Of a DNA stretch of 41,490 bases, positions 26,707-31,831 are shown one piece after another (positions within the stretch are counted from its first letter, which is position 1; every line of letters begins with the position of its first letter). A model generated the notes under the pieces. That model had not been told where the DNA came from. It worked only from the letters and a program-made list of their open reading frames with translations, and made no database searches. This DNA is from Hyphomicrobium sp. GTDB lineage: Bacteria; Pseudomonadota; Alphaproteobacteria; Rhizobiales; Hyphomicrobiaceae. The translations under genes were made by a program, and so were the position numbers. The DNA lies in the NCBI GenBank assembly GCA_019748215.1, contig JAIEPV010000004.1, positions 1 to 41,490 of the forward strand, written 5' to 3'.

Positions 26707-26733
26707 GGAAGGAGGGAAGTTTACCTCCTCGGA

Positions 26734-26915
26734 TCGTCATCCTCGGTCGAGCGCGGCGCAGCCGTCGCGAAGGCCGGGGATCCAGCGTAAGGATTGCCGA
26801 AGGCTCAAAAACAATCAAGGCGCTCACAATGGAGCGCCTTGTAAATGCGTCTTCGACGCACTTTGCGCTGGATCCCCAAACTTGGTCGCTTCCCTCCCGC
26901 GTTCGAGGATGACGA
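26734..26915. repeat. Copy 1 of ~182-bp nested-palindrome repeat
   Basis: 12-bp TIR tcgtcatcctcg (26734-26745) / cgaggatgacga (26904-26915); internal aaggcgctc-N6-gagcgcctt hairpin and ggggatccagcg / cgctggatcccc arms. Confidence 0.93.
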
Positions 26916-26921
26916 ACAGAA

Positions 26922-27227
26922 TTAGTCGCGCCAATTTTGAATAGTCTGGGCGAGGTCGGTCCACTCGGGATTTGTAGCTTCAATCAGCGCGATCTTTTGA
27001 GCACGTAAGAATTTCTTCAGCTGTTTCTCTCGTGCGATAGCGTCGAGCATCGTCGCGAAGTATTCGTAGTGCACCAGACGATGCACGCCATAACGCTTGG
27101 TGAACCCATCGACCAATTTCTGCTGATGGATTGCGACGCGCGCGGCAAGATCAGACGTGACGCCGACATAGAGCGTTCCGTTTTTTCGGCTTGCGAGAAT
27201 ATAAATCGCCGGTTGTTTGGCGCGCAC
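26922..27227 (-). CDS. Small GIY-YIG nuclease family protein
   Basis: IYILASRKNGTLYVGVTSDLAARVAIHQQKLVDGFTKRYGVHRLVHYEYFATMLDAIAREKQLKKFLRAQKIALIEATNPEWTDL. GTG start at 27227 with AGGAGG just upstream; the longer track ORF reads through repeat copy 2. Confidence 0.9.
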   Translation of the reverse strand: MRAKQPAIYILASRKNGTLYVGVTSDLAARVAIHQQKLVDGFTKRYGVHRLVHYEYFATMLDAIAREKQLKKFLRAQKIALIEATNPEWTDLAQTIQNWRD

Positions 27228-27241
27228 GACGCCTCCTCGGA

Positions 27242-27423
27242 TCGTCATCCTCGGTCGAGCGCGGCGCAGCCGTCGCGAAGGCCGGGGATCCAGCGCAAGG
27301 ATTGCCGAAGGCTCAAAAACAAGCAAGGCGCTCACGATAGAGCGCCTTGTAAATGCGTCTTCGACGAGTCCTGACGCTGGATCCCCGAACTTGGTCGCTT
27401 CCCTCCCGCGTTCGAGGATGACG
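27242..27423. repeat. Copy 2 of ~182-bp nested-palindrome repeat
   Basis: Near-identical to copy 1; left TIR 27242-27253, right TIR 27413-27423; shares the 10-bp left flank cctcctcgga with copy 1. Confidence 0.93.
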
Positions 27424-27486
27424 GGTCGTTGTTGTTGTTGACGGTTTGAGAGCAAGATAGAACCGCAGTAGTGGTAGCTGTTTGGA

Positions 27487-27668
27487 TCGTCATCCTCGGC
27501 CGAGTGAGCAACGCGAACGATGGCCGGGGATCCAGCGTAAGAATTGCCGAAGGCTCAAAAACAAGCAAAGTGCTCACGATGGAGCGCCTTGTAAATGCGT
27601 CTTCGACGAACCCTGACGCTGGATCCCCGAACGCGTTCGCAAAAGTGCTACACGGCAGAGGATGATGA
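27487..27668. repeat. Copy 3 (diverged) of ~182-bp nested-palindrome repeat
   Basis: tcgtcatcctcgg left end 27487; shared core ccggggatccagcgtaagaattgccgaaggctcaaaaacaagcaaa...; right end gaggatgatga 27658-27668. Confidence 0.9.
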
Positions 27669-28001
27669 CTTTTTTCGCCTGCTAATGGTGTCAATCATAT
27701 CAACATTCTCCCTTCTCTCACGGTCCTCATTGATCGAAGACGATTCAAGAGAGTTGTCTTCTTCAAACTGACGTAGTGCTGCGACAGCCCGCCCGGTATC
27801 GAGCTCGGCCACTTCAGTTTCTGCAAAGGCGGTCATCATCTCTGCTTCAAATCGGTCTCGACGTTTTTTCGATGCGGCATCGGAAATAGCGCTACTTAAC
27901 CGGTTTTTCGCTGAAACTGCTTTCTCGTCAGCGGCTTCGGCGCGGGCCATCGATTGTTGGGCGGTCACAAGTAGCAGTTGCCGAACGGAAGCTAACGACA
28001 T
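27648..28001 (-). CDS. Hypothetical coiled-coil-like protein
   Basis: 117-aa charged/alanine-rich ORF; its last codons and stop lie inside repeat copy 3. Confidence 0.55.
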   Translation of the reverse strand: MSLASVRQLLLVTAQQSMARAEAADEKAVSAKNRLSSAISDAASKKRRDRFEAEMMTAFAETEVAELDTGRAVAALRQFEEDNSLESSSINEDRERRENVDMIDTISRRKKSSSSAV

Positions 28002-28072: not shown

Positions 28073-31000
28073 TCACGAACACCCACTCGTGCTTCCACAC
28101 GTGTCGCACTTCAAACACGTGCCATTCCGAACCATCGTGAAGTTGTGGCATTCGGTGCAGGAGACGCCTTCGTAGCCGCGCAGTTTGGCTTCGGACGCGC
28201 GCTGCTTGTGCAGTTCGGCTTTGGTCAGCACCGGCGCCGCCGTGACGATCGTGCGCTGATAGAGCGTTTCGGTGTCGGCCTTCAACGCGGTGGCGCCGAT
28301 GCTTTGCGGCGCGCCGCCGTGCAGGTCGGTGACGTCCTGCTGCATCTGGCGCATGGCGTCGATGGTGCCGGTCGACGATGCCGTCGACGTCGACGTGACC
28401 TGCGATCCGCCGCGGCTGGCGAGACGCACGACCGGCGCGCCGCGCACAAGCCCCTTCGCCACGTCGCGCTGAGGCAGATCGAGATCGAGCTGGATGTCGG
28501 TGTCGGCATCGGACGAGCCAAGCCCGGTCTCGCCGACGATTTCGCGCGGATCGACATGCGCCAGATCGTGGCGGCCGAGGTACGACACGGCGAGTTCGCG
28601 GAAGATGTAGTCGAGGATCGAAGTGGCGTTCTTGATCGTCTCGTTGCCCTGCACTAGGCCGGCCGGTTCAAAGCGCGTGAAGGTGAATGCCTCGACGTAT
28701 TCTTCGAGCGGCACGCCGTATTGCAGGCCAAGCGAGATGGCGATGGCGAAATTGTTCATCAAGGACCGGAAGGCCGCGCCCTCCTTGTGCATGTCGATGA
28801 AGATTTCGCCGAGATTGCCGTTGTCGTATTCGCCGGTGCGCAGATACACTTTATGCCCGCCGACGCTGGCTTTTTGCGTGTAGCCCTTGCGCCGGCCCGG
28901 CATCTTTTCGCGCTCTTGGCTCTTGATGTATTCGACGCGCTCGACGATGCGCTCGACGATCCGCTCAGTCACGACGGCCGTGCGTGCCGCCATTGCCGGA
29001 TTGGCAAGCAAGGCCTCTGCCGCGGTTTCGTCTGCGCCGTCGTCGTCGCCGAGGACCTGCGAATTCAGCGGCTGCGACAGCTTCGAGCCATCGCGATAGA
29101 GAGCGTTGGCCTTCAGCGCCAGCTTCCACGATAGCATGTACGATTGTTTGCAATCGTCCACTGTAGCGTCGTTGGGCATGTTGATGGTTTTGGAAATCGC
29201 ACCCGAGATGAACGGCTGCGACGCCGCCATCATGCGGATGTGGCTGTCGACGGACAAATAGCGGCGGCCCTTGCGGCCGCACGGGTTGGCGCAATCGAAC
29301 ACCGACAAGTGGTGCTCTTTCAGGTGCGGCGCACCTTCAAGCGTCATGGCGCCGCAAACATGTTCGTTGGCCGCTTCGACATCGCGTTTTGAAAAGCCGA
29401 GATGGGCGAACAGATCGAACGCCGGATCGGCAAGCTTGTCGGCTGGAACTTTGAGTGTGTCGATCAGGAACGCATCGCCCAAGGTCCAGCGGTTGAACAC
29501 GAACTTGATATCGAACGCCGATGCCAAGCCGCTCTCGATTTTTTCCAGCGCTTCGTCGGTGAAGCCGCGGGCTTTGAGCGACGTGTGATTGATGGCGGGC
29601 GATTGGCGCAGCGAGGCGTGACCGACCGCGTAGGCTTCGATCTCGGCAACCTGATGCGGGGCATAGCCGAGCGTGCTCAAGGCTTCCGGAACCGACTGGT
29701 TGATGATCTTGAAATAGCCGCCGCCGGCGAGCTTCTTGAATTTGACGAGCGCGAAGTCAGGTTCGATGCCGGTCGTGTCGCAATCCATGACGAGGCCGAT
29801 GGTGCCGGTCGGCGCGACCACGGTCGATTGGGCGTTGCGATAACCGTAGCGTTCGCCGAGCGACAGCGCCTGATCCCAGACGCGCTTGGCGGCATCGATC
29901 ATGCGCGTGTCGAAGCATGAGGCATGATCGAGCGGCACCGGCGCGACCGAGAGTTTTTCATAGCCCTGGGAGTAACCGTAGGCGGCGCGGCGATGGTTGC
30001 GGATGACGCGCAGCATGTCGCTGGCGTTCGGCGCATAGCCGGGAAACGGGCCGAGCTCGCCAGCCATTTCAGCGCTTGTGGCGTAAGCGACGCCGGTCAT
30101 GATGGCCGAGATGGCCCCGCAAATGGCGCGGCCTTCATCTGAATCATACGAGGTACCAGCCGACATCAGCAGGCCGCCGATATTGGCGAAGCCGAGGCCG
30201 AGCGTGCGATAGCGGTAGCTCAATTCAGCGATCTGGCGTGACGGGAACTGCGCCATCAGCACCGAGATTTCGAGCACGATGGTCCACAGGCGGCAGGCGT
30301 GTTCGTAAGCCTCGATGTCAAACGATTTGTCGTCGCGGCGGAAGCGCAGCAGGTTGAGCGACGCGAGGTTGCACGCGGTGTCATCGAGGAACATATATTC
30401 CGAGCACGGGTTCGAGGCGCGAATTTCGCCTGATTGCGGGCACGTGTGCCAGTCGTTGATGGTGGTGTGGAATTGAATGCCGGGATCGGCCGAAGCCCAG
30501 GCGGCATGACCGATCTGTTCCCACAGATCGCGCGCCTGCAACGTCTTTGTGACTTTGTTGCCGAGGCGTGCAGTGAGGTTCCACGGCTTGTCTTCGACGA
30601 CGGCGTTGAGGAACTCGTCGGTCACGCGCACCGAGTTGTTAGAGTTCTGGCCTGAGACGGTGAGATAGGCTTCGCTATCCCAATCGGTGTCGTAGGTGTC
30701 GAAGGCGATGTCCGTGTAGCCCTGCTTGGCAAATTGGATGACGCGCAGGACGTAGTTTTGCGGCACCAGATCGCGCTTGGCGTCGCGGATCGCCTGCTTG
30801 AGCTTCGGATTTTTCGCAGGATCGAAACAATCGCCGGCGTCGGCTTCACAGTTGACGCAGGCTTTCATCACCGCCTTGAGGCGCTTCTGGCAAATCTTCG
30901 AACCGGTGACCAGGGCGGCGACCTTCTGTTCTTCACGCACCTTCCAGGTAATGTATTCTTCGATATCGGGATGGTCGACATCAACGACCACCATCTTGGC

Positions 31001-31831
31001 GGCGCGCCGCGTCGTGCCACCGGACTTAATGGCGCCAGCCGCGCGATCGCCGATCTTGAGGAAGCTCATCAGGCCGGACGAACGGCCGCCGCCCGAGAGT
31101 TTTTCATTGGCACCGCGCAGGGATGAGAAGTTCGAGCCCGTACCCGAGCCATATTTGAACAAGCGCGCTTCGCGAACCCACAGATCCATGATTCCGCCAT
31201 CACCGACGAGATCATCAGCGACTGACTGAATGAAACAGGCGTGGGGTTGGGGATGTTCGTAGGCCGACGAAGACGAGGTCAGCTGGCCGGTCTGATAGTC
31301 GACATACATGTGTCCCTGGCCAGGACCGTCGATCCCGTAGGCCCAGTGCAAACCGGTGTTGAACCACTGCGGCGAATTCGGTGCCGCCATTTGCATGGCG
31401 AGCATGTAGCGATGCTCATCGAAGAACGCCCGCGCATCGTCTTCGGTTGAAAAGTATCCGCCCTTCCAGCCCCAGTACGTCCACGTGCCGGCGAGACGGT
31501 CGAAGACTTGACGAGCGTCGCTTTCGCCGCCAAAGCGTTCGGCTTCCGGAATCGCATTGAGGGCTGCCTCATCGGGAATCGAGCGCCAAAGCCACGATGG
31601 AATCTGCGTCTCTTCGAATTTTTTCAGGCGGCGCGCGACACCGGCTTTGCGGAAATACTTCTGCGCCAGAATATCAGCGGCGACTTGGCTGAAATGCTCG
31701 GGCACGTCGAAGCCATCGAGGCGGAAAACGACAGACCCATCTGGATTCTTGATTTCGGAAGTCGCGCGCCGGAACGGCATCGTCGCGTAGGGTGATTGTC
31801 CAGCTGTCGTAAAGCGCCGCGTGATCTTCAT
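28073..31831 (-). CDS. nrdJ: Vitamin B12-dependent (class II) ribonucleotide reductase
   Basis: 1252 aa; [42 protein letters not shown], and C-terminal [28 protein letters not shown]. Confidence 0.97.

Follow-up and report, generated by a model that had tools for sequence, protein, structure and literature searches.

The stretch of DNA analysed here (the window) comprises 41,490 nucleotides of a Hyphomicrobium genome (assembly GCA_019748215.1, contig JAIEPV010000004.1) in which a small gene for a GIY-YIG nuclease lies tightly between palindromic repeats of about 182 bp. The initial annotation had described three copies of this repeat, each with inverted ends and inner palindromes, and a GIY-YIG open reading frame (ORF) between copies 1 and 2, its stop 7 bp from the one and its start 15 bp from the other. 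It had also proposed a mobile pairing of nuclease and repeat, analogous to that of repetitive extragenic palindromes (REPs) and REP-associated tyrosine transposases (RAYTs). We recovered the three copies, the gene and the close spacing (6-7 bp between copy 1 and the stop, about 14 bp between the start and copy 2), and each copy could be resolved into two inverted REP halves and a central palindrome:

26734-26915, no strand: REP dimer copy 1, 3' of the nuclease gene (sequence and folding)
26735-26787, plus strand: left REP half of copy 1, with CGTC tag and ATCCA tail
26816-26841, no strand: central palindrome of copy 1, CAAGGCGCTCACAATGGAGCGCCTTG (sequence and folding)
26866-26914, minus strand: right REP half of copy 1
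26922-27227, minus strand: small GIY-YIG nuclease gene, 101 amino acids, GTG start (PF01541, E = 1.6e-13; invariant residues; structure model)
27232-27238, minus strand: Shine-Dalgarno sequence GAGGAGG of the nuclease gene, within a stretch common to copies 1 and 2 (sequence)
27242-27423, no strand: REP dimer copy 2, 5' of the nuclease gene
27243-27295, plus strand: left REP half of copy 2
27375-27423, minus strand: right REP half of copy 2
27486-27667, no strand: REP dimer copy 3, diverged, with a degenerate right tag

The best start of the nuclease gene is the GTG at 27225-27227, which has GGAGG upstream. The Tyr, Tyr, Arg, His, Glu and Asn of the catalytic site are invariant among 32 relatives, and a structure model with a predicted local distance difference test (pLDDT) score of 89.7 is similar to UPF0213, the N-terminal domain of UvrC and Slx1. 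The PF01541 match, the invariant residues and the model together give the protein the fold and the catalytic Tyr, Tyr, Arg, Glu and Asn of a GIY-YIG nuclease. It shares fold and active site with small GIY-YIG proteins of the UPF0213 kind (1zg2, 1ywl), UvrC and Slx1, but identity to them is only 26-32% over the best matches and, unlike the family described here, more distant small GIY-YIG genes of the same genomes mostly lack REP brackets. The window's genome itself has a second small GIY-YIG gene (L024; G000:C208:4895-5149), 27% identical to its best family match and without inverted brackets. No phage homologue of the nuclease was found. In several proteins of the family the downstream REP encodes the C-terminus (GSPPxRG) together with the stop codon; a tally of stop codons lying within REP tags (31 of 220 loci) was near chance and was dropped.

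The repeat is composite, with inverted REP halves of the form CGTCATCCTCG...GGGGATCCAGCG and its reverse flanking a spacer that holds the central palindrome. Between copies 1 and 2, identity is 97% in the main block of 135 nt and 98% in the final 49 nt; copy 3, aligned without gaps, is 73-83% identical. Folded as single-stranded DNA, the nested hairpins of copy 1 have a z score of -6.45 against 200 dinucleotide shuffles, none of which was equally stable. The stretch common to copies 1 and 2 starts at 26724 and 27232, respectively, and includes CCTCCTC, which on the opposite strand is the Shine-Dalgarno sequence of the gene; because the 3' dimer shares even this stretch with copy 2, it probably arose, judging by the alignment, through a duplication of about 508 bp.

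Read from its sequence, the 182-bp element consists of two CGTC-tagged REPs in inverted orientation. Bacteria have two large superfamilies of tagged palindromic repeats, and CGTC REPs make up one of them; they are marked by a CGTC tag, an ATCCA tail and head-to-head dimers, they flank no transposase gene, and a dedicated transposase was reported to be lacking for them in 2013 (Di Nocera 2013, PMC3733652). Taking as the mark of the superfamily CGTC (or TGTC/CCTC) at one end and a CCA-type tail, we find CGTCATCC...GGATCCA in each of the three copies (copy 3 has one degenerate tag) and throughout the genome. Head-to-head dimers are interspersed there as well (24 matches in G000, many of them inverted pairs), and the window genome's REP pattern has 19 matches where the reversed control pattern has none; the census used exact patterns that miss variants with other tags, and its counts are lower bounds. 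Tag, tail, dimers and interspersed copies are thus those of the published repeats, which include neisserial dRS3, a CGTC-1 REP (PMC3733652). The published families differ in having stems of 8-9 bp with loops of 4-5 nt and in having had no described associated gene. Because its stem is longer and less perfect, the Hyphomicrobium 182-bp form is best filed as an extended variant outside the four published families; a short-stem form, CCCGGCGAAGGCCGGG, is also present in the window's genome. We note that in a nearly complete 4.1-Mb genome (G018) the REPs are strongly strand-biased, with 51 forward and 20 reverse.

We have found that genes of this nuclease family are commonly bracketed by inverted repeats well beyond the window. 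Bracketing was scored by aligning the 5' flank of each gene to the reverse complement of its 3' flank, a score of at least 18 counting as bracketed, in set A (60 relatives, tblastn matches of at least 75 bits), set B (299 genomes of the phylum) and set C (named genomes matched by the window's protein, from alpha-, beta-, gamma- and deltaproteobacteria, Magnetococcales, Nitrospirota, Planctomycetes, Elusimicrobia and others). Set A gave rise to the hypothesis; sets B and C, which have a few loci in common with A and with one another, are mostly out of sample. Inverted brackets flank the gene at 40 of 73 loci in set A, 48 of 74 in set B and 61 of 83 in set C, or 142 of 220 distinct family loci, and at 117 of these 142 a CGTC-type tag is recognisable. 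The final controls were real ORFs, in place of shifted windows: 1 of 383 was bracketed in 400 kb from 20 of the same genomes and 11 of 378 among the neighbours of set C loci, and among control ORFs of up to 160 amino acids the figures were 0 of 136 and 5 of 141. Fisher's tests against an earlier control of 1 in 385 gave p values, uncorrected for shared ancestry, of 8e-30 to 2e-56. The initial annotation would have been refuted by orthologous nuclease genes mostly without repeats beside them, which is not what we see. The window's own brackets, which are palindromic dimers on both sides, score 16 as inverted arms, under the cut-off of 18.

The tag usually lies on the outside where its position can be read (107 head-out, 16 head-in, 24 unreadable). 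A generic hairpin or terminator was ruled out as an explanation: the brackets form inverted pairs, mostly with their tags facing outward, and are specific to genes of this nuclease family. The idea that any GIY-YIG gene would be so flanked was ruled out likewise, more distant GIY-YIG genes being mostly unbracketed (1 of 7 bracketed, and 2 of 12 fragments or distant matches). In Azospirillum lipoferum 4B (AZO_p3, L376) a family gene flanked on both sides by a REP dimer separates sufB from sufC and so interrupts the suf operon, and in Neisseria gonorrhoeae (L375, NZ_CP119140.1) an unannotated family gene lies within a dense array, 16 dRS3 repeats over 3.2 kb. The latter sequence is labelled a plasmid despite its chromosome-like size of 2.17 Mb. 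On plasmid p1 of Planktothrix agardhii (L378, NZ_LR882964.1) a family gene sits between a type IIL restriction gene and the DISARM gene drmA, amid GTCATTCTGAG-type repeats. A more distant small GIY-YIG gene (L309, in G087) is bracketed by another inverted repeat, CCTCCTTCGAGGCC...CTCAGGATGAGG, and is possibly a second pairing of repeat and nuclease.

Gene and brackets behave as a unit in another genus of the same order (g45), where the signs of insertion that the initial annotation had called for can be seen. Units of 509-515 bp there have the exact outer ends TTCGTCAT...ATGACGAA and occur at unrelated loci, and similarity between them stops at TTCGTCAT/ATGACGAA wherever they were compared. 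At ligD a 511-bp unit is present in G113 and a longer one in G109, while G228 and G330 have none; the G113 flanks, when joined, align to G228 across the junction at 81%. At glmS the unit is present in G113 and G129, G109 has neither unit nor palindrome, and G228 has a gene-less palindrome of 57 bp, TTCGTCATCCACGGGC...GCCCGTGGATGACGAA, with a matching left flank. Tandem copies of the unit were seen at two other loci (L073 and L145), the former including a gene fragment.

The REPs also vary together with the protein. REP similarity is positively correlated with protein identity (Mantel r = 0.38, p = 5e-4), and in genomes with several bracketed paralogues the REP of a paralogue is closer to that of its nearest homologue elsewhere than to those of paralogues in its own genome in 23 of 26 cases (23 versus 3, p = 9e-5), this within-genome test being the only correction for shared ancestry in the co-variation data. 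By these comparisons the REP variant follows the gene lineage and not the genome, as illustrated by CATGGCCGCGAAGGCGGCCATCCACG (L059/L060) and CGTCATTGCGAGCGAAGCGAAGCAATCCAG (L203/L264). Abundance points the same way across the phylum: among the 299 genomes, at least five REPs of one pattern are found in 46 of 78 with the gene and in 27 of 221 without it (p = 4e-15).

We think it probable, though by no means certain, that gene and brackets form a REP-nuclease unit in which the nuclease nicks its cognate hairpin and the host copies either the unit or gene-less dimers. Such a unit would consist of a CGTC-tagged REP, the small GIY-YIG nuclease gene and an inverted CGTC REP. The nuclease would recognise its cognate tagged hairpin, extruded as a cruciform or exposed on a single strand, and would nick at the outer end of the REP, after which host repair or replication would copy the unit itself or, in trans, REP dimers that lack the gene, the 182-bp element among them. 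On this view the 182-bp repeats would depend on the nuclease as non-autonomous passengers, much as REPINs are thought to depend on RAYTs. Directly observed are the brackets, REPs that vary with the protein, units that end at the REP tags, sites found both filled and empty, the near absence of a Y1 transposase in the genus and the conserved catalytic residues; from these we infer that the nuclease recognises and cleaves the repeats and that cleavage drives their spread. GIY-YIG enzymes hydrolyse DNA and are not known to carry out strand transfer, which is why we assign the joining step to the host.

In several respects this arrangement resembles the REPtrons formed by REPs and RAYTs, and REPINs (Nunvar 2010, PMC2817692; TnpA-REP, PMC8266576): REP variants are specific to a gene lineage, inverted REP pairs without a gene are scattered, and few genes accompany many REPs. 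Co-variation of REP with protein, found here by the Mantel and within-genome tests, is itself a mark of REPtrons, and matching trees of REP and protein belonged to the original RAYT case. The enzyme here is a GIY-YIG hydrolytic nuclease (PF01541), whereas REPtrons have a Y1/HUH transposase of the IS200/IS605 type; the tag is CGTC, with an ATCCA tail, rather than GTAG (GTRG), and strand transfer is not known for the enzyme here. The Y1 transposase family PF01797 was not found in the window's genome and 20 of its 21 relatives, leaving one weak Y1_Tnp match in 22 Hyphomicrobium genomes. The nuclease system works like REP/RAYT but does not belong to it, since it lacks both the Y1 enzyme and the GTAG tag that define the latter, and its own enzyme is unrelated. 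The hypothesis put forward in the initial annotation, that of a REP/RAYT-like repeat-associated nuclease, is supported in this sense by the sequence data on bracketing, insertion and phylum-wide REP abundance. The units also recall pairs of insertion sequences and miniature inverted-repeat transposable elements, in which the same inverted termini are found on the complete unit and on its derivatives without the gene; they differ in having no known transposase and no target-site duplication that we could see, and in that the ends are themselves hairpins.

GIY-YIG homing endonucleases spread by cutting unoccupied sites and relying on host recombination, and the gene might move alone in a similar fashion, cutting unoccupied sites or sister alleles so that host recombination copies it, with the REPs as its ends and other REPs as footprints of lost units. 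We regard this as unlikely, though it deserves to be taken seriously: it draws on an established mode of spread by the same catalytic domain, and presence or absence at fixed loci (ligD, glmS, the ribonucleotide reductase locus) and a gene-less palindrome at a glmS site that is filled elsewhere would suit it. It sits poorly with REPs that usually far outnumber the genes and form dimers with their own central spacer, and with units at unrelated loci. The family here, moreover, is of about 100 amino acids, consists of the domain only, has no intron, and does have terminal palindromic repeats and multi-copy gene-less derivatives, in all of which it departs from homing endonucleases. Rather less likely, in our view, is a domesticated function, in which the nuclease processes REP cruciforms or branched DNA for the host while adjacent REPs regulate or mark its gene. 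Such a role would fit the resemblance of the model to Slx1 and UvrC, which are structure-selective nucleases, the long retention of the gene at a single locus in 10 of 19 Hyphomicrobium genomes, and the C-termini and stop codons that some genes take from a REP; patchy presence, several paralogues per genome with different REPs, many copies that are truncated or carry stop codons, and gain and loss between species speak against it.

REPs are common in intergenic DNA and some REP-rich genomes lack the gene, so the association might be passive, neutral intergenic places tolerating REPs beside genes whose product is inactive on them; neighbouring ORFs in REP-rich loci are, after all, sometimes bracketed (11 of 378). 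We find this improbable given that bracketing exceeds that of control ORFs, short ones included, that the orientation is mostly inverted with tags outward, and that REP and protein match by lineage. Least probable of all is that another enzyme, a RAYT or an insertion sequence, moves the REPs, with the GIY-YIG gene carried along as cargo enclosed by two of them. RAYTs do process GTAG REPs (PMC8266576) and a gene can be trapped by two repeats, but one family would have to be caught repeatedly with matching REP variants, and transposase genes are not flanked by CGTC REPs (PMC3733652). In Hyphomicrobium, with its single weak Y1 match in 22 genomes, a RAYT acting in trans was judged an unlikely mover.

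Several observations weigh against a REP-nuclease unit, in whose proposed mechanism joining by the host is the weakest step. Clear brackets are lacking at about a third of the 220 family loci, and, the within-genome test apart, the statistics carry no correction for shared ancestry. No target-site duplication was seen at ligD, where the bases beside this one empty junction have diverged. The window's own brackets are complete dimers that repeat each other in direct orientation, and in close relatives the 182-type dimer lies 5' of the gene, with a REP also 3' in only one of five (L031). The initial annotation would also have been refuted by repeats just as numerous where the gene is missing; this is not so across the phylum, but among the 60 nearest relatives the association is not significant (29 of 44 versus 6 of 16, p = 0.075). 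A few genomes without the family gene are REP-rich (G096 with 160 REPs, G213 with 122, G111 with 48 and G056 with 37), and a check of these four with the Pfam model gives only a GIY-YIG frame of UvrC length; within the genus, G001 and G013 have REPs and no family gene. Such genomes may be relics after loss of the gene, or a sign of another enzyme.

The nuclease family is a candidate for the dedicated enzyme of CGTC REPs, reported without a transposase in 2013. We would give about an even chance to a broader claim, that CGTC REPs as a superfamily, dRS3 included, are mobilised by a dedicated enzyme, the stand-alone GIY-YIG nuclease of about 100 amino acids, which would act by hydrolytic nicking and host repair in place of a transposase and would mark a second independent origin of REP/REPIN systems. 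If this is true, selfish repeats of the REP type arose at least twice, with unrelated enzymes, the common annotation 'GIY-YIG nuclease family protein' gains a function, and many natural pairs of compact nuclease and hairpin target become open to study. The candidate enzyme is testable, and it is spread over alpha-, beta-, gamma- and deltaproteobacteria and several other phyla. We found no earlier report in the open-licence literature tying GIY-YIG genes to REP, RAYT, REPIN or palindromic repeats; one may exist elsewhere.

Lastly, two further features lie beside the repeats in the window:

27648-28001, minus strand: ORF of 117 amino acids without a Pfam match, the variable gene of the locus in this species
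28073-31831, minus strand: ribonucleotide reductase gene of the B12-dependent type (named from sequence), which anchors the locus in relatives

Of the 19 Hyphomicrobium genomes examined, 10 have a family gene downstream of the ribonucleotide reductase gene, in two groups with opposite orientations, and what lies between the two genes is different in most species. Downstream of the reductase, the small gene or genes differ in most Hyphomicrobium species (27648-28001 in the window; L286-L304 elsewhere), which makes the place beside the REP-nuclease unit a hot spot for variable genes.
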